In this document: one piece after another, positions 1,384 through 18,499 of the stretch
Position numbering within the stretch: position 1 is the stretch's first letter
How the letters are laid out: every line of letters begins with the position of its first letter
From: a virus
Direction: 5' to 3' (one strand)
IMG/VR virus record: IMGVR_UViG_3300007542_000232
Span: 1 to 21,396 of that record
DNA: 21,396 nt
Translations under genes and position numbers: made by a program
Notes under the pieces: generated by a model
The model's database searches: none
Told to the model about the DNA's origin: nothing
What the model saw: the letters and a program-made list of their open reading frames with translations, nothing else

Positions 1384-3509
1384 TGCTGACACATGAACAG
1401 ATACTAAAATACTTCGATAAAGACTACACCCACGGTCAAGAAGTAAGAGAGAAAGCAGCTAATGATATGGTGTTCGCTTGGGTGACGCAGTGGGATGATG
1501 ATACATTAGCAGGCAGTGACTTAGAGTATCGAGGCGAGTTTAATATTATTCGCAAGGCTGTAAGGCACATACTCACTGACCTAGTTATCAATGAAGTACA
1601 AGTTGACTTTGAACCCGATGAAGGAACAGACGACAAAGCTAGCGACATACTTGACGGCATCTACCGCGCCAATATGCGTTACAACGTATCACAAGAGGCC
1701 AAGAAGAATGCAAGCCAAGAGGCTGTTGCTTGTGGTGTTGGCGCGTGGGAATTAGTTGCTGAATATAAAAACCCTTGGAGCGAGAAACAACACTTAGTTA
1801 GACGTCCAATCTACGAAGCTAATAACTGTGTATTTTGGGACAACAACGCCAAGTTACTAGACAAGTCAGACGCAACTAGAGTCACGATACTAGAATCATT
1901 CAGTGAAGACGCTTACGAGGCGTTAAAGGATGACTTAGGTATTGAGGATGATGGCTCAAACTTTGCCATGCCTTACACTGACTTATCTTTCCAGTGGGTA
2001 ACAGGCAGCAAACAAATTTATGTGGGTAAGTTTTACCATCGTGAGATTAAAACGTGTAAATATTACGTCTATGAGGATGCCTTCGGTACACGTCGAGAAG
2101 TAGAGTCTGATGATTTAGACGAGCAAGAAGACTCACTTGTTGACGGTGGCTTTGATTTTGTCGAAGAAAAGAAGAAGAAAGAATGGCGCATCACTCGCTA
2201 CTTGGTGAGTGGTGAGAAGATATTAGAAACTGCTGAAATAGCCGGTGAACATATCCCTGTAGTTCCTCAATACGGCGAAAGAGCTTTTGTTGATGGTGTG
2301 GAATGGTATGAAGGTGTTGTAAGGCTAGCTAAAGACCCACAAAGACTGCGCAACTTCCAGTTATCATACTTAGCTACTATTGTTGCAAGAAGCCCAAGAG
2401 AAAAGCCTATATTCGGTGATGAGCAAATTGCTGGTTATGAAGACATGTACGAAATGTCAGGTGCAGAAAATAACCTGCCCTACGTTAAGATGCGTACACT
2501 TGATAGTCAAGGCAATCCATTACCCATGGGGCCGTTAGGATATATTAAAGCACCAGAAGTACCACCAGCATTAATGGCATCAATCTCAGAGTCACGGGCT
2601 GCTGTGGATGATGTAGCTAGTGTTGGTCTAATGCCCGACATAGCTGACACTGATTTGTCTGGTAAGGCTATAAATTCTATTCAGAAACGTTTAGACATGC
2701 AGTCATACACCTACCAAGATAATCACAAGTACGCAATGCGTAGAGATGGTGAGATATTCGCGTCAATGTTTAGCGCAATAATGGATGAGGAGCAGGAAAT
2801 AACATTAGTTAACTATGATGGTTCACGTAAGAAAGAAACCATCAACAAACAAAAGTTTGACTATGTTAAAGATACTGCTTACACAGAGAACGATACAACT
2901 AAGATGCGCTTCAATGTTCATGCGACGATTGGCCCTGCATTTGAATCAGTACGCGAACAACAGATGGAGCAGTTGAAAGAATTAATTATGAGTCAACCTC
3001 CAGGCTCACCAACTCACACTATGTTATTAAACAAATTCCTAACCTTGACTCCGGGCGCTGGCTTTGAAGATATACGCGACTTTGCCAACCTACAACTTGT
3101 ATTGTCTGGCGTTAGAAAGCCTGAAACTGAGGAAGAAATGGCAGCACTTAAACAAGCACAAGAAGCACCTAAAGAGCCTGATGCTAATATGGTACTTGCT
3201 CAAGCTGAGCAGATTAAAGGTCAAGCTGATATTATGGCTCAAGAGAATAAAAAACTTGAGTTACAACTGAAAATGGCTGACTTACAAGAGAAGTACAGCG
3301 GTGAGAATAAAAAGAGAGACTCAGAGACAGCGGTCAATATTGCCAAGGTACAGCAAGGTGAGCGTAAACTAAGCTTGGATGAGCAGAAAGTTATGAATGA
3401 CTTTGCACTTAGGTTAGCAGAGCTTGAGCAAACTTATGGCAGACAGCTGGACGGTGAGGTTAAAAGCAACATGCTAGTATTTGACCCCTTGATAGGTGAT
3501 TTCGCATAA
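1383..3509 (+). CDS. Portal protein, P22 gp1-like
   Basis: The portal is the dodecameric ring at one capsid vertex through which DNA enters and leaves; it nucleates head assembly. The product has 708 residues, against about 725 for P22 gp1, and sits directly after the large terminase as expected. The N-terminal half is mixed alpha/beta with many acidic residues. From about residue 590 to 695 the chain is rich in Gln, Lys, Glu and Ala (for example LAQAEQIKGQADIM), a long helical stretch that matches the position of the C-terminal helical barrel of P22-type portals. The start is set by the TAATG overlap with terminase, and the stop overlaps the next start in the same way. Family assignment rests on length, gene order and general pattern. 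Confidence 0.9.
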   Translation: MLTHEQILKYFDKDYTHGQEVREKAANDMVFAWVTQWDDDTLAGSDLEYRGEFNIIRKAVRHILTDLVINEVQVDFEPDEGTDDKASDILDGIYRANMRYNVSQEAKKNASQEAVACGVGAWELVAEYKNPWSEKQHLVRRPIYEANNCVFWDNNAKLLDKSDATRVTILESFSEDAYEALKDDLGIEDDGSNFAMPYTDLSFQWVTGSKQIYVGKFYHREIKTCKYYVYEDAFGTRREVESDDLDEQEDSLVDGGFDFVEEKKKKEWRITRYLVSGEKILETAEIAGEHIPVVPQYGERAFVDGVEWYEGVVRLAKDPQRLRNFQLSYLATIVARSPREKPIFGDEQIAGYEDMYEMSGAENNLPYVKMRTLDSQGNPLPMGPLGYIKAPEVPPALMASISESRAAVDDVASVGLMPDIADTDLSGKAINSIQKRLDMQSYTYQDNHKYAMRRDGEIFASMFSAIMDEEQEITLVNYDGSRKKETINKQKFDYVKDTAYTENDTTKMRFNVHATIGPAFESVREQQMEQLKELIMSQPPGSPTHTMLLNKFLTLTPGAGFEDIRDFANLQLVLSGVRKPETEEEMAALKQAQEAPKEPDANMVLAQAEQIKGQADIMAQENKKLELQLKMADLQEKYSGENKKRDSETAVNIAKVQQGERKLSLDEQKVMNDFALRLAELEQTYGRQLDGEVKSNMLVFDPLIGDFA

Positions 3510-4690
3510 TGCCAGTAGTAGAGATAAAAGGCACAGGCCAGCAAGCTAAATTCCCTGATGATATGCCTATAGATAGCATCAAGGCTTTCCTACGCAAGAA
3601 GTTTGGTTCACCTAGCGATGCACTAAGGCCGCTAGAGCCAGTAGCGCAAGAGGTTAAGCCCGGCTTAGCTGAACGTGCTGGACAAGGCTTATCTGATTTA
3701 CTCTACGACAATAACATTATATCTGATAGATATGGCGCACAAAGAATAGGCGGCAACTTATCAAGCATTGGCGAAGCATTACCTTTTACTGGTGATGCTG
3801 CTGCTGGTGATGAATTTGGTAGGGCTGCTGCTCAAGGTGATAAGTCAGGTATGTTGTTGGCTGGGTTAGGTGCTATACCTATTGCTGGTGATGCATTAAA
3901 GAAAGGCACTAAATGGTATCATGGAACAAATAAACAATTTGACGATTTTAATACAGACACAACTTTTATAACTGATAATGAAAAGCTTGCGTATATTTAT
4001 TCAAGGCAAGACCTAGGGCAGAAAGGGAGGGTTTTTGAGGTTGAGCATGATGTTCCTGATGATTTAATTTTCGACACAAATAAACCTGAGCATAGGAAAA
4101 TATTCAACGATAAGTTTTATAGGAAATGGGGAGGAGGTGGCCCGCTGTCGGACAAAGGATATCCAGATTGGACAGATGCAGAAGATTTTAAGCAGTTTTT
4201 TGAGGAGTCTGGACTGCCATTCAAAGGGGTTAAAATACAAGAGCCGCAAGGAGATATATCATTAGCTATAACTGATGTTGATATGGTAAGACCTGCCAAG
4301 GGTAGCGGTAAGGCTATGAGTGATGGAGGGATTAAATCTATCGAATCGCCTTTTAAGTCTACATTCCCAAATAGTGAAAGACTCACAACAGGAAATGCAC
4401 ACATAGACATTGCAGAATCTAAATGGTCGCCAACTAAGTATAGTATTGTTGAGTTCCTAACTGGTGAGGCTGATAGGGGGAAAGGATACGGCAGCAAGTT
4501 AATGGATGAGGCAATAGCAAAATATGGAAGTGAATTATCAGGTGCATTTTCATCAAAAGAATCGATAGCTATGGCTTATAAAAAAGGGTTTAGGCCATTA
4601 GCAGAGGAATATCAAGGAATGAGTGTAGGGGAGTTGATACAAGCTGGCAAAAATGGTTCAGTTACCATGTCATATAGCGGAAAGAACTAA
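3509..4690 (+). CDS. Putative virion cargo protein: ADP-ribosyltransferase-like plus GNAT-like domains
   Basis: A 393-residue protein with no counterpart between portal and scaffold in P22 or Sf6. Residues 1-32 (MPVVEIKGTG, then FPDDMPIDSIKAFL) resemble the short N-terminal segment seen on many phage internal or ejected proteins. Residues 50-132 are Gly/Ala-rich. Residues 136-262 look like an ADP-ribosyltransferase of the polyvalent-protein type: WYHGTNKQFDDF (136-147), TFITDNEKLAYIYS (152-165) and a closing strand SLAITDVDMVRP (251-262). Residues 295-364 look like a GNAT acetyltransferase, with RGKGYGSKLMDEAI (323-336) as the acetyl-CoA loop and SIAMAYKKGF (352-361) as motif B. Substrates are unknown. 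The third catalytic ART residue cannot be placed by eye. Glycine codons switch from GGC/GGT to GGA/GGG at about residue 134, suggesting the enzyme part was acquired separately. Packaging or injection is an inference. Confidence 0.72.
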   Translation: MPVVEIKGTGQQAKFPDDMPIDSIKAFLRKKFGSPSDALRPLEPVAQEVKPGLAERAGQGLSDLLYDNNIISDRYGAQRIGGNLSSIGEALPFTGDAAAGDEFGRAAAQGDKSGMLLAGLGAIPIAGDALKKGTKWYHGTNKQFDDFNTDTTFITDNEKLAYIYSRQDLGQKGRVFEVEHDVPDDLIFDTNKPEHRKIFNDKFYRKWGGGGPLSDKGYPDWTDAEDFKQFFEESGLPFKGVKIQEPQGDISLAITDVDMVRPAKGSGKAMSDGGIKSIESPFKSTFPNSERLTTGNAHIDIAESKWSPTKYSIVEFLTGEADRGKGYGSKLMDEAIAKYGSELSGAFSSKESIAMAYKKGFRPLAEEYQGMSVGELIQAGKNGSVTMSYSGKN

Positions 4691-4872
4691 TCCAAATATT
4701 CCCAGTTAGTAACATCTAGCTGGGATTCTATTTCAATACCTGTTTGCTTGGAGTAAAACCCATCACCAAACCTTCCAGCTACAAATATACATGGCGACAT
4801 TGATTCACTATTCCCAGTTACCTTGTCAACTCCAAACACTTTCAAAAGTTTATATTCAGTCGGGTTATTCAT
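4687..4872 (-). CDS. Small hypothetical protein, 61 aa
   Basis: Last gene of a minus-strand cassette. The 61-residue product begins MNNPTEYKLLKVFGVDKVTG and has a hydrophobic-aromatic middle (CIFVAGRFGDGFY, residues 28-40) and an acidic end (WEYLD). I recognise no family. The ATG at 4872 overlaps the end of the upstream 58-aa gene by 8 bases, and no clear Shine-Dalgarno is seen, so translation is probably coupled. An in-frame TTG at 4884 is a less likely start. The stop overlaps the stop of the convergent ART-GNAT gene by 4 bases, so the two transcription units collide here with no visible terminator between them. Confidence 0.6.
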   Translation of the reverse strand: MNNPTEYKLLKVFGVDKVTGNSESMSPCIFVAGRFGDGFYSKQTGIEIESQLDVTNWEYLD

Positions 4873-5041
4873 TTGAATTATCAACCATTAGAGCTGCTTT
4901 TCTACATAACATAGGACTAATACTAGGCATAGCATACATAAATAAATCATATACAGCGGGGGTGATAAATATTAAACCATCATTTACATAGTAATCATCT
5001 GTTTTTATTTTTGCATCTTTAATCATATCTAAATTAGCCAT
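4865..5041 (-). CDS. Small hypothetical protein, 58 aa
   Basis: Product of 58 residues starting MANLDMIKDAKIKTDDYYVN and ending MVDNSNE. The middle (DGLIFITPAVYDLFMYAM, residues 21-38) is hydrophobic and aromatic but interrupted by Pro, Asp and Tyr, so a membrane segment is unlikely. I recognise no family. On the minus strand the ATG is preceded by AGGGTGATTT, a good ribosome site that overlaps the TGA stop of the upstream 41-aa membrane gene. That arrangement supports real translation as part of a compact operon. The 3' end overlaps the 61-aa gene by 8 bases. Confidence 0.6.
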   Translation of the reverse strand: MANLDMIKDAKIKTDDYYVNDGLIFITPAVYDLFMYAMPSISPMLCRKAALMVDNSNE

Positions 5042-5044
5042 AAA

Positions 5045-5170
5045 TCACCCTACTGCAAAACAAGCAGCCAACAATATAAACACAAAATACCCCACAATAG
5101 CCCAAGCTGCACCAGTTGGACCGTTAATGAGAAAGCCGATAGATGCAACGAATAGTAGTTCGATTATCAT
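5045..5170 (-). CDS. Small membrane hairpin protein, 41 aa
   Basis: A 41-residue, almost wholly hydrophobic protein. Residues 1-15 (MIIELLFVASIGFLI) and about 23-40 (AWAIVGYFVFILLAACFA) can each enter or span the membrane, joined by a short NGPTGA turn, so a two-helix inner-membrane hairpin is likely. The ATG at 5170 is preceded on the minus strand by GAGG with an 8-base spacing, embedded in the last codons of the 64-aa gene. There is no signal-peptidase site or charged tail. It could be a small holin-like, exclusion or membrane-modifying protein, but the sequence does not decide. The gene is short enough to be missed by most ORF cut-offs. Confidence 0.6.
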   Translation of the reverse strand: MIIELLFVASIGFLINGPTGAAWAIVGYFVFILLAACFAVG

Positions 5171-5173
5171 AAT

Positions 5174-5368
5174 TTAAACCTCATGCCTATAAACCTCATC
5201 AAGAGAAGAAAATGCAGCTTTTTTTGCTTCTTTTACTGCGTTCCCAAGGTCTGACAAATCCTTGTGGCTAAACATAATACGGTTTCCTCGCTCATCTTCT
5301 ATTGTTATGTGTACTGGGTGCCCACCTTCCCATACTTCCAAATCGAATTTACCTATAGTTTTAAACAT
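5174..5368 (-). CDS. Small hypothetical protein, 64 aa, beta-rich then helical
   Basis: Product of 64 residues. The first half (FDLEVWEGGHPVHITIEDE, residues 8-26) reads as a beta hairpin with conserved-looking WEGGHPVHI. The second half (DLSDLGNAVKEAKKAAFSSL, residues 37-56) reads as a soluble amphipathic helix. I recognise no named family; the look is that of small phage or plasmid accessory proteins. The ATG at 5368 follows GTGAGGGTTT on the minus strand, a good Shine-Dalgarno that overlaps the TGA of the upstream zinc-ribbon gene. Only three bases separate its stop from the next start. Confidence 0.68.
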   Translation of the reverse strand: MFKTIGKFDLEVWEGGHPVHITIEDERGNRIMFSHKDLSDLGNAVKEAKKAAFSSLDEVYRHEV

Positions 5369-5374
5369 AAACCC

Positions 5375-5542
5375 TCACTTAATAGTCGGACACTTGCCAA
5401 CTGTATTACCTAAATATCTAGCAGCACTAACAACTTTATTAGCAGTGATGCCACACTTGCATGTCACACTAGATTGACTCGAATCAACCAGCTTTTCAAA
5501 TACGCCACATTTAGGGCATTTGAAATCGTGTAGTATTTTCAT
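5375..5542 (-). CDS. FmdB-like zinc-ribbon protein, 55 aa
   Basis: First gene of the minus-strand cassette. The 55-residue product begins MKILHDFKCPKCGVFEKLVD and carries CPKCG (9-13) and CKCG (28-31), four cysteines spaced like a zinc ribbon. The opening (short start, Phe-x-Cys-x-x-Cys-Gly, then FE) is the pattern of the FmdB-type small zinc ribbons often found in phages. The role is unknown; nucleic-acid or protein binding is typical of such folds. A further Cys (C51) lies near the C-terminus. The start at 5542 is preceded by AGGTGA on the minus strand. The TGA stop lies inside the ribosome site of the next gene, which argues for one polycistronic message. Confidence 0.72.
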   Translation of the reverse strand: MKILHDFKCPKCGVFEKLVDSSQSSVTCKCGITANKVVSAARYLGNTVGKCPTIK

Positions 5543-5561
5543 TAATCACCTATCCTATTAA

Positions 5562-5574
5562 TTGACCCTGTCAA
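5562..5574. promoter_or_regulatory. Inverted repeat TTGAC-CCT-GTCAA, possible operator
   Basis: A perfect 5-bp inverted repeat with a 3-base centre. It lies 20 bases upstream of the zinc-ribbon start on the minus strand. Read on the minus strand it contains TTGACA, but no well-spaced -10 box follows before the ATG, so a protein-binding site is at least as likely as a -35 box. Confidence 0.35.
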
Positions 5575-5583
5575 GCATATTAT

Positions 5584-5613
5584 CAGATAAATTTGCCTAT
5601 CTGGTACGACCAG
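5584..5613. promoter_or_regulatory. Overlapping dyads in the divergent intergenic region
   Basis: Two dyads share sequence. CAGATA (5584-5589) pairs with TATCTG (5598-5603) across 8 bases. CTGGT-ACG-ACCAG (5601-5613) is a perfect 13-bp dyad with a 3-base centre, the same size as the one at 5562-5574. They sit between the divergent zinc-ribbon and scaffold genes, where a regulator could act on both. No T-run follows, so they are not intrinsic terminators. Confidence 0.35.
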
Positions 5614-5622
5614 TGATATTAT
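5593..5622 (+). promoter_or_regulatory. Candidate promoter for the scaffold-coat unit
   Basis: TTGCCT (5593-5598) resembles a -35 box and TATTAT (5617-5622) a -10 box, separated by 18 bases. The 13-bp dyad at 5601-5613 fills the spacer, which would suit repression. Many phages read late genes from a single distant promoter, so a local promoter is only a possibility. Confidence 0.3.
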
Positions 5623-5686
5623 TGTAATACACCCGATATGCTGGTGAATAAGCATAGTTAATCGTTGCACTACGAGGATAAAATAA

Positions 5687-6706
5687 GTGACAGATACATT
5701 ATCTCTGAAACAGCTAAAAGAGAAAAACGCTTTAGAAGATGGTCAGACACCGGTTGAAGCCAAGCCCAAACAAGAAGTTAAGCTTGATGAATATGTGGAA
5801 GAAAAACCAGAACTAAAAGCGGATGAAGTTGGAACTGAAATCGAACATGATGACGATGTAAGTGATGCGGATTCAGAATCCTGGAAGCAACCCGAAGAAG
5901 CAGAGGCTTCGGAAAATGAGCAGAGTGGTTTTAAACCAAATTCAGCAATTGGTAAGGTTCGCAAACAACTAAGAGCGAAAATCAATGAGCGTGACGAGGA
6001 ATTAGAATTACTCAAGGCGAAGATACAGAAGCTAGAAAGCGGTAGCGGTCAAGCACCAAGGCAAGCACAACAGCGGCCAAAGCTTGAGCAATACGACTAC
6101 GACGAGGACAAGTATAACGATGCGCTTGATGCGTACTACGAAAGCAAAATTGATAGCCGAGTAGCTAACACACAACAATCGCAGAGTAAGAAAGCCCAAG
6201 AAGAAGCGCTTAAACAAGCTAAAGAATCAGCGTTAAATGCTCACTATATCAGGGCTGAAAAATTGGTTGAATCTGGCAGTGTATCCGAGGATGAATACCA
6301 CTCAGCAGATAAGTCATTACGGATGAGCTTAGAAAAAGCCTTTCCTAACAATGGCGAATCGATTACTGATGACCTGATAGTCACTTTAAACGATTTAGGC
6401 GATGGTAGCGAAAAATTACTGTACCAACTAGGTATTAACAGTGCAAAGCGTGACCAGTTTATAGCTAAGCTAAAGACTAGCCCGTATAGCGCAGTTGCTT
6501 ACTTGGGTATGTTACATGCCACTATCAATAGCCCGAATAAACGTAAATCTTCGGCACCTAAGCCAGCTACGCAGATTAAAGGCGAGTCAGGCGGTAAGGC
6601 AGAAAATCTCTACCAGCAATGGAAGAAATTAGATGGCGATCCGTCTAGAATTAGCATAAAACGCAAAGCCAAGGCATCAGGTGTTGATACTAGCAACTGG
6701 AATTAA
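5687..6706 (+). CDS. Capsid scaffolding protein, P22 gp8-like
   Basis: The scaffold directs coat assembly into a procapsid and leaves before or during packaging. The product has 339 residues (P22 gp8 has 303) and lies directly upstream of coat, as in P22. It is highly charged: residues 1-80 are strongly acidic, residues 95-115 (INERDEELELLKAKIQKLES) read as a coiled coil, and residues 120-190 are rich in Gln, Lys and Tyr. The last 50 residues are basic, with two short helices ending near the C-terminus, which fits the coat-binding helix-turn-helix of P22-type scaffolds. The start is GTG at 5687, chosen because GAGGA (5674-5678) lies 8 bases upstream and no ATG fits. The assignment rests on position and composition, since these proteins diverge quickly. 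Confidence 0.85.
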   Translation: MTDTLSLKQLKEKNALEDGQTPVEAKPKQEVKLDEYVEEKPELKADEVGTEIEHDDDVSDADSESWKQPEEAEASENEQSGFKPNSAIGKVRKQLRAKINERDEELELLKAKIQKLESGSGQAPRQAQQRPKLEQYDYDEDKYNDALDAYYESKIDSRVANTQQSQSKKAQEEALKQAKESALNAHYIRAEKLVESGSVSEDEYHSADKSLRMSLEKAFPNNGESITDDLIVTLNDLGDGSEKLLYQLGINSAKRDQFIAKLKTSPYSAVAYLGMLHATINSPNKRKSSAPKPATQIKGESGGKAENLYQQWKKLDGDPSRISIKRKAKASGVDTSNWN

Positions 6707-17227: not shown

Positions 17228-18499
17228 ATGGTTAGGTATAACGGCTCAGCAATAAACAAGTTTATAACTAAAAGCACTGGAACGGCTGGCGCTGGAACAT
17301 TAATTACAATCAAGGTTACTGGTGTTGGCTCACTTGCTACTTTATATAATAACGTTGGCGCGCCGCTATCTAACCCTGTGGCAGCGGACTCTAATGGCAA
17401 CTTCTTTTTTTATGTTGATCCGGGCCATTACGATTTAGTTTTTAACGCTGGAATGCCTAGTGAAGTCACTATTTTTGATGAGCCAATCGTTGACGTGCCA
17501 GAAGATGATGGCACTTTAGTTAAAAACGTTGTAATACTCACAAGCGGCCAAAACATTGTTACATTTAGTAGTATCGTTGCAAGTGGCGCGGCTGTTTACT
17601 TAAACGGTACTGGCGCTGATGATGGAAGATTGCACGAAGATGCTGACTATATTTTACGCCCTGATATTGATGCTTATACGATTGAGCTAACAGCTACTTA
17701 TGCAGCGGGAAGTACAATCACAGCGTATAACTACTCAAGCGCTGGTGGCATTTCTTATAATCTATCTAATGCAGATTTGAAGATTGATGTTATTGCTCAC
17801 AGAGGATTTAAAAACAGTTTCCCACAAAATACCATGCTGGCATTCACTAGCGCTATTAGGAGAGGCGCAACAGCTCTTGAGTGCGATGTACAGATTACAT
17901 CGGATGGTGTCCCTGTGGTTTTCCACGATGATACTGTGGATGCTTTAACTAATGGCACTGGAACAATAGCAAGTTTAACATTGGCTCAAGTTCAATCTTT
18001 AACAATAGATGAAGTCGCTGGGACTGCATTCAGTGACACTAAAATACCTACATTTGCTGAACTGTTAAGATATTGCAAAGGTGCTGGACTTCGGATATTC
18101 CCAGAGATTAAAAAGTATCGATCACAGACTGACATTAGCTTAATGATTGACGATGTTATTAATGCAAGCATGGAAGGTCAATCTTACTTTTCATCATTCG
18201 CTTATTCTGATGTATCATACTTTAGAACGCTAAACAGTCAGATAGTTTGTGGATTGCTTGGCAGTTCAACTAACCCGATAGTGTACGAGGCGAACATTAA
18301 TGACTTATCAGCTTTGGGTAATTCGATTATAATATGGAATTATCCAGCATTGCTTGTTCAGCCAAACATTGTGCTTTATGCAAGATCTAAAGGCGTTGAT
18401 GTGGCAGCATGGACAGTTAACGACAATACAGATGCTAAAAAAGTAATGAGAGTGGGCGTGACTAAAATAATTACAGACGTAGCGTTGGAGGTTTTATGA
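17228..18499 (+). CDS. Tail protein with glycerophosphodiester phosphodiesterase (GDPD) domain
   Basis: A 423-residue protein with an anchor part and an enzyme part. Residues 1-90 (ATLYNNVGAPLSNPVAADSN, then FFFYVDPGHYDLVF) are a module common on phage fibres; residues 95-180 are a second beta domain. Residues 187-423 are a GDPD TIM barrel: IAHRGFKNSFPQNTMLAF (189-206), GATALECDVQITSDGVPVVF (213-232), HDD (233-235), EIKKY (293-297) and AAWTVNDNTD near the end. The expected residues H191, R192, E218, D220 and H233 are present, so the site looks active with a divalent metal. It likely cuts glycerol-phosphate linkages in a capsule, O-antigen or teichoic-acid-like polymer on the host surface. The role as a depolymerase is inferred from its place in the fibre block. 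The stop overlaps the next start as ATGA. Confidence 0.88.
   Translation: MVRYNGSAINKFITKSTGTAGAGTLITIKVTGVGSLATLYNNVGAPLSNPVAADSNGNFFFYVDPGHYDLVFNAGMPSEVTIFDEPIVDVPEDDGTLVKNVVILTSGQNIVTFSSIVASGAAVYLNGTGADDGRLHEDADYILRPDIDAYTIELTATYAAGSTITAYNYSSAGGISYNLSNADLKIDVIAHRGFKNSFPQNTMLAFTSAIRRGATALECDVQITSDGVPVVFHDDTVDALTNGTGTIASLTLAQVQSLTIDEVAGTAFSDTKIPTFAELLRYCKGAGLRIFPEIKKYRSQTDISLMIDDVINASMEGQSYFSSFAYSDVSYFRTLNSQIVCGLLGSSTNPIVYEANINDLSALGNSIIIWNYPALLVQPNIVLYARSKGVDVAAWTVNDNTDAKKVMRVGVTKIITDVALEVL

Follow-up and report, generated by a model that had tools for sequence, protein, structure and literature searches.

In P22-like phages, a variable block of non-morphogenetic genes known as the 'ant moron' is located in the late operon between genes 16 and 9, and its gene set differs between phages (PMC2629481). 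That survey saw no moron between the portal and scaffold genes, and it raises the question of why, within the head-gene cluster of P22-like phages, morons are confined to a single place (PMC2629481). We describe here a five-gene antisense cassette that is a block of the same general kind, but lies between portal and scaffold rather than between genes 16 and 9. No mnt/arc/ant-like gene was recognised in it with Pfam or NCBIfam. The cassette may be new in its place, that is, a moron of a known type at a second site, and the leader RNA that follows it may be the more novel part. No earlier report of the portal-scaffold slot or of the leader RNA was found in the literature searched, most subscription papers lying outside it.

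Five minus-strand genes between portal and scaffold

The window, by which we mean the whole stretch of DNA analysed, is a virus record of 21,396 bases containing terminase, portal, ART-GNAT, five minus-strand ORFs, scaffold and P22-type coat (Pfam, PHROGs). The features in and around the portal-scaffold interval, here called the slot, are as follows.

3509..4690, plus strand: ART-GNAT gene, the first gene after the portal and neighbour of the block
4687-4872, minus strand: c5, 61 aa from ATG or 65 aa from an upstream TTG; orphan; only GGT, without a Shine-Dalgarno sequence (SD)
4700..4725, plus strand: hairpin with a T-rich tail immediately downstream of the ART-GNAT stop; 10-pair stem, 6-nt loop
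4865-5041, minus strand: c4, 58 aa, orphan; SD match GGTGA
5045-5170, minus strand: c3, 41 aa, hydrophobic, one or two membrane segments; SD match GAGGT
5174-5368, minus strand: c2, 64 aa, orphan, called from ORF, SD and packing; SD match GAGG
5375-5542, minus strand: c1, 55 aa, FmdB-type zinc ribbon (CPxC...CxC); SD match AGGTGA
5543..5629, no strand assigned: divergent control region between cassette and scaffold leader
5593..5622, plus strand: candidate scaffold promoter TTGCCT-18-TATTAT, its -10 ending 7 nt before the pseudoknot
5630..5677, plus strand: scaffold leader RNA, with H-type pseudoknot (5630-5656) and hairpin (5662-5675) abutting the SD
5687..6706, plus strand: scaffold, GTG start, right edge of the slot; phrog_648 E 4.1e-12

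An earlier note, made from the letters of this DNA, had called five minus-strand genes of 55, 64, 41, 58 and 61 aa between ART-GNAT and scaffold, and we found genes of these lengths at these places. The note also described them as packed, with overlaps of 3-8 bases. The chain is indeed tight, but the genes of c1/c2, c2/c3 and c3/c4 lie 6, 3 and 3 nt apart, and the one overlap within the block is that of c4 and c5 (8 nt); c5 also shares 4 nt with the 3' end of the ART-GNAT gene. As the note had it, the next ribosome site contains or adjoins the stop codon at c1/c2, c2/c3 and c3/c4, and every gene but the last has a plausible SD.

The longest chain of packed ATG ORFs of at least 40 aa in the block consists of five, whereas 2000 dinucleotide shuffles of the same 1 kb yielded no chain of three or more and none of five. 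The longest such chain was one on the rest of the minus strand and one on the plus strand of the slot. The called frame had the best codon score of the six frames for all five genes (c3 ties with one plus frame), by small margins; the score of c5 itself is about zero, and several of 42 chance antisense ORFs from other parts of the window score as high. The DNA of the block is 100% identical in two other IMG/VR contigs; because these come from different metagenomes, the block is not an assembly error, and such copies are uninformative on selection. Its GC content is 36.4%, against 41.3-43.8% in the neighbours. The five minus-strand genes are real.

The zinc ribbon and its relatives

The c1 protein aligns to the core of the FmdB zinc ribbon (TIGR02605 / PF09723), from which it differs as a stand-alone 55-aa phage version with a second knuckle of the form CxC. 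Since its match to TIGR02605 (E 3e-7) scores 30.4 bits and does not reach the curated cut-off of 31.3, we call c1 related to the FmdB ribbon and do not file it as a member; the match to Zn_ribbon_8 of Pfam (E 1.3e-5) is under the gathering score. The cysteine knuckles of c1 read CPKC and CKC, and the homologues in loci L130-L133 and L135 are without the first CxxC. That c1 is a transposase remnant (phrog_12300, E 7.8e-4) was ruled out by stand-alone relatives of about 55-63 aa.

Searched alone against phages, c1 had no match at E <= 0.01. Its homologues in viral contigs are 34-54% identical, and it clusters with a 56-aa gene that follows the portal in L048 and L049. A scan of viral contigs with this 56-aa gene gave 13 loci; 12 were examined (L129-L140, L129 being the L048 contig again), 9 of which match c1 itself at E <= 2e-5, and the contexts of all but L132 were surveyed. 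In L130, L131 and L133 (the portal of L131 is SU10-type) terminase and portal flank an antisense ribbon gene; in L135 the antisense ribbon gene adjoins the terminase, and in L136, again antisense, it has a head protein on one side and a head-tail adaptor on the other. In L138 and L139, which are of the P22-coat type, it is divergent from the scaffold, and upstream of it in L138. It adjoins a tyrosine integrase in L140 (the context of the best c1 homologue, 54% identical), and lies among other genes in L134 and L137. The contexts seen across L130-L140 demonstrate that an antisense cassette with a zinc ribbon occurs repeatedly in the head operons of unrelated phages. Judged by these homologies, the zinc ribbon is a mobile family that is also antisense in the head operons of other phages.

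Antisense cassettes of small genes with a zinc ribbon were located in head operons of unrelated phages at L131:5835-6171, L136:5344-6168 and L138:3850-4619. A ribbon partner of 53-59 aa, with no Pfam match, is common to L138, L131 and, weakly, L020.

The other four genes

Pfam, PHROGs and NCBIfam gave no match of a useful level for c2-c5, and the same three collections revealed neither a defence family nor a toxin or antitoxin family in c1-c5. Neither the concatenated cassette (tblastn, E <= 1) nor the DNA of window positions 4000-6500, searched directly, had a match in phages. Scans of viral contigs with c2, c1 and c4+c5 returned only the two identical contigs mentioned above, and no diverged homologue of c2-c5 was found in the viral-contig scans. 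A single-sequence AF2 model of c2 reached a pLDDT of 61, and c2 was rejected as a Phd-like protein because hhalign of the Phd-like profile described below gave only 0.2%. The Kyte-Doolittle maximum of c3 is 2.45, and relatives, too, repeatedly carry small hydrophobic proteins in the slot.

The portal-scaffold slot in relatives

Loci were collected with a portal profile (the best 80 of 583 confirmed viral candidates, plus 21 genome loci) and, including earlier loci, 107 were examined, of which 72 were resolved, having a portal stop, a scaffold start and a coat gene. The named phages compared were Vibrio 1.275.O, Pseudomonas AH02, Bas106 and P22, out of 218 with a portal match, together with Sf6. 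Among the 72 resolved loci, whose viral members come from the best 80 of 583 and include near-duplicates, the distance from portal to scaffold forms two groups, 45 loci lying between -70 and 234 nt and 27 between 360 and 2426 nt. All 17 resolved Enterobacterales genome loci have 31 nt or less. In P22 and Sf6, which the earlier note had said to be free of such a block, 13 nt separate portal from scaffold and the block is missing. Vibrio phage 1.275.O (171 nt) and Pseudomonas phage AH02 (113 nt), the named relatives that are nearest by portal, carry no gene in the slot. The comparison of presence and absence proposed in that note thus found the interval empty in these four phages and at least 360 bp long in 27/72 resolved loci.

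Minus-strand blocks of 2-9 genes fill the slot in L020, L022/L094, L024, L043, L051, L061/L064, L069, L076, L086 and L090-L092, the largest (up to nine packed genes) being those of L061 and L064; L020 has seven. Plus-strand blocks are found in L015-L017, L019, L023, L027, L029 and L030. L015, whose portal is 54% identical to that of the window, carries a homologue of the ART-GNAT gene directly after the portal (39.9% over residues 1-261), followed by plus-strand small genes. Large plus-strand proteins of one family stand directly after the portal, instead of small genes, in L044 (5114-8718), L045, L058 and L062.

The earlier note had taken the block for a moron-type insertion. Its absence from the nearest named relatives, the other small genes that relatives carry in the slot and its lower GC content all agree with this, and by most tests the block is a moron.

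Cargo genes of the slot

By clustering, the largest family of cargo genes in the relatives is Phd-like and occurs in 18 loci, 8 on the plus and 10 on the minus strand. Only 4 of 16 members match Pfam Phd/YefM at E <= 0.1 (best 0.0078). The AF2 model is EHHEE, its pLDDT is about 90 for roughly the first 40 residues, and YefM and Phd are its top matches in the PDB (Foldseek, E 0.12 or worse), so that in the model this frequent slot protein (L015 and others) looks like the N-terminal part of Phd/YefM. It differs from these antitoxins in that its scores are weak and no cognate toxin was recognised, and the cassette of the window is without a Phd-like gene.

The 95 cargo proteins of relatives include matches to YopX (4.7e-23), gp49/66 (3.6e-12), PAPS reductase (1.4e-6), NinX (1.4e-4) and DUF7336, which are mostly families of early or accessory regions. 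By these matches, the genes of the slot are similar to phage genes of early or accessory type (YopX, gp49/66, NinX, Phd-like). PADLOC on the same 95 proteins found three families with one member each, the best being SspD (7.4e-8). A PAPS-reductase-like gene, assigned to its ORF by sequence (phrog_424, E 6e-53), lies on the minus strand in the slot of L090 (3390-4379).

Third-position changes lead in 8 of 10 pairs of homologous minus-strand cargo genes, the other two being nearly identical and uninformative, which shows that the minus-strand slot genes of relatives are genuine. In these pairs dN was less than dS wherever both could be computed (one pair is without a dS estimate), with a difference of only 0.105 vs 0.181 in the Phd-like pair L061/L043. 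Codon-level alignment, the check on which the earlier note had staked its genes, shows conserved frames in c1, for which homologues were found, and in the relatives' minus-strand cargo. Gene content is shared in part: L043 and L061 have three families in common, and the blocks of L020 and L022 are common only in part.

The scaffold leader RNA and the edges of the slot

Nine aligned leader sequences (of 26) were used to measure covariation in the leader. The aligned cells pair in 96% of cases, and 7 of 14 pairs change on both sides. The covariation score was 0.448, against 0.126 in shuffles, and was reached by 0/500 of them; when the partner was slid by one to three columns, it fell to 0.004-0.105. 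In other loci the first stem is exchanged wholesale (CACC/GGTG, CTCG/CGAG, CAGC/GCTG, ACCT/AGGT). A search for the best pseudoknot gave a score of at least 20 upstream of the scaffold in 26 of 39 non-redundant loci, compared with 5/37 upstream of the portal, 1/39 upstream of the coat gene and 2/39 inside the scaffold. The exact hairpin pattern occurs in 18 viral contigs, in 17 of them at the scaffold leader. Many environmental phages of the P22-like group have the pseudoknot and hairpin in common with the window. In L058 and L060, both with cargo, the motif was absent at the expected place. Rfam 15 had no match to the leader in 10 sources, apart from one chance match on the other strand (E 0.32).

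In a set of 31 leaders, picked for having the motif and including duplicates, the best promoter -10 ends 7 nt before the first stem in 14, 8 nt in 2 and 21-38 nt in 15. Because of the 7-8 nt spacing, the mRNA of the former groups probably begins with the pseudoknot. The window score of the candidate scaffold promoter was reached by 10.5% of shuffles, and its -10 is at the same position in relatives. In several relatives with plus-strand cargo (L019, L023, L027, L048, L075, L082) a strong terminator stands just upstream of the leader. The covarying pseudoknot leader and the likely promoter suggest that scaffold and coat form their own transcription unit, with cargo tolerated just upstream.

T4 gene 32 has an autoregulatory mRNA pseudoknot in its leader and, like the scaffold gene, encodes a phage product needed in stoichiometric amounts; the P22 scaffold is self-regulating. 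The scaffold leader differs from that of gene 32 in its gene, in details of the fold and in its location at a predicted 5' end. The leader RNA may be a site of scaffold self-regulation or of mRNA protection.

At the other edge, the hairpin at 4700-4725 is a possible terminator of the portal/ART unit, and is weak evidence by itself because two such sites were found, compared with 3.0 expected in shuffles. No minus-strand terminator of the cassette was called. The best minus-strand promoter score in 5543..5629 was reached by 23.5% of shuffles, whereas L020 and L051 have good minus-strand promoters, with scores reached by 1.5% of shuffles each.

Discussion

We consider it likely that these five protein genes make up a moron-type cassette in a portal-scaffold hot spot, with the scaffold-coat leader after it. 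Portal and ART would end one transcription unit, at the hairpin, and scaffold would start another. If scaffold and coat have their own promoter and leader, DNA inserted before the leader, in either orientation, would leave the expression of the head genes undisturbed. The cassette would be one minus-strand mRNA from a putative start between 5543 and 5645, from which c1 to c5 would be translated in order; c5, being without an SD, would be translated by coupling to c4. Going by the cargo families of relatives, the cassette is likely to be expressed early or in the prophage, not with the head genes.

The earlier note had suggested that the five proteins may act together. A single functional system, such as an operon for defence or exclusion, would suit the tight packing of the operon-like block. 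However, the relatives' cargo is modular, its genes being combined differently from locus to locus, and the zinc ribbon moves independently of the other families, alone, with its 53-59 aa partner or in unrelated contexts, so joint action is unsupported; with c1-c5 also free of hits to defence families in Pfam, PHROGs and NCBIfam, we regard one system as unlikely. Because slot genes reassort, separate small functions fit better than a five-part machine, each protein being presumably a separate factor directed at the host or a rival phage. The zinc ribbon would be a protein- or nucleic-acid-binding module and c3 a membrane protein. Somewhat less likely still is a mainly regulatory cassette, whose antisense transcription would damp read-through into the scaffold with the proteins as passengers. 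The arrangement is divergent with respect to the scaffold leader, and the P22 ant moron is reported to influence the level of tailspike by read-through (PMC2629481), but plus-strand cargo is also common in relatives and the frames of their minus-strand cargo are conserved as proteins.

There is little chance that the minus-strand ORFs are spurious and the region an untranslated spacer or plus-strand remnant. It is true that c2-c5 are small orphans with a weak codon signal and identical copies only; against this stand the shuffles (0/2000), the SDs at four of five genes, the family match of c1 and a plus-strand chain that never exceeds one. Least probable of all is an invertible segment caught in its minus state. 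Relatives do carry cargo on either strand, but no inverted repeats flank 4687-5542, the sole long inverted pair (5402-5418 / 5615-5631, 82%) does not flank the block, both identical contigs have the same orientation, and no recombinase was recognised in the slot.

For the moron-type cassette, a broader proposal, to which we give about even chances, is that many environmental P22-like phages begin a separate scaffold-coat mRNA with a new class of regulatory RNA, a 5'-terminal H-type pseudoknot and then a ribosome-site hairpin, and that the slot has thereby become a second hot spot, beside the ant-moron site. Uncoupling of scaffold and coat from the upstream genes would make the place before the leader available to antisense cassettes of early type, and similar zinc-ribbon cassettes would have settled in the head operons of unrelated phages. 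The slot gives the head-gene cluster a second moron place, used on both strands, and there is a testable reason for it: the transcription units to its left and right would be kept apart by a promoter and a folded leader. The slot further hints at a rich reserve of uncharacterised small genes of early type within head operons, among them the recurrent Phd-like protein and the mobile zinc ribbon. With the leader RNA, absent from Rfam 15, control of the scaffold protein can be put to a direct test across the wider P22-like group.

Two minor features of the window may be recorded. The tail-region protein at 17228-18499 presumably contains a glycerophosphodiester phosphodiesterase-like stretch. Two short direct repeats have one copy where the ART-GNAT gene region ends and the other midway in c5 (4659-4672 / 4815-4828, 93%; 4697-4708 / 4809-4820, 100%), and they might mark a past recombination event.
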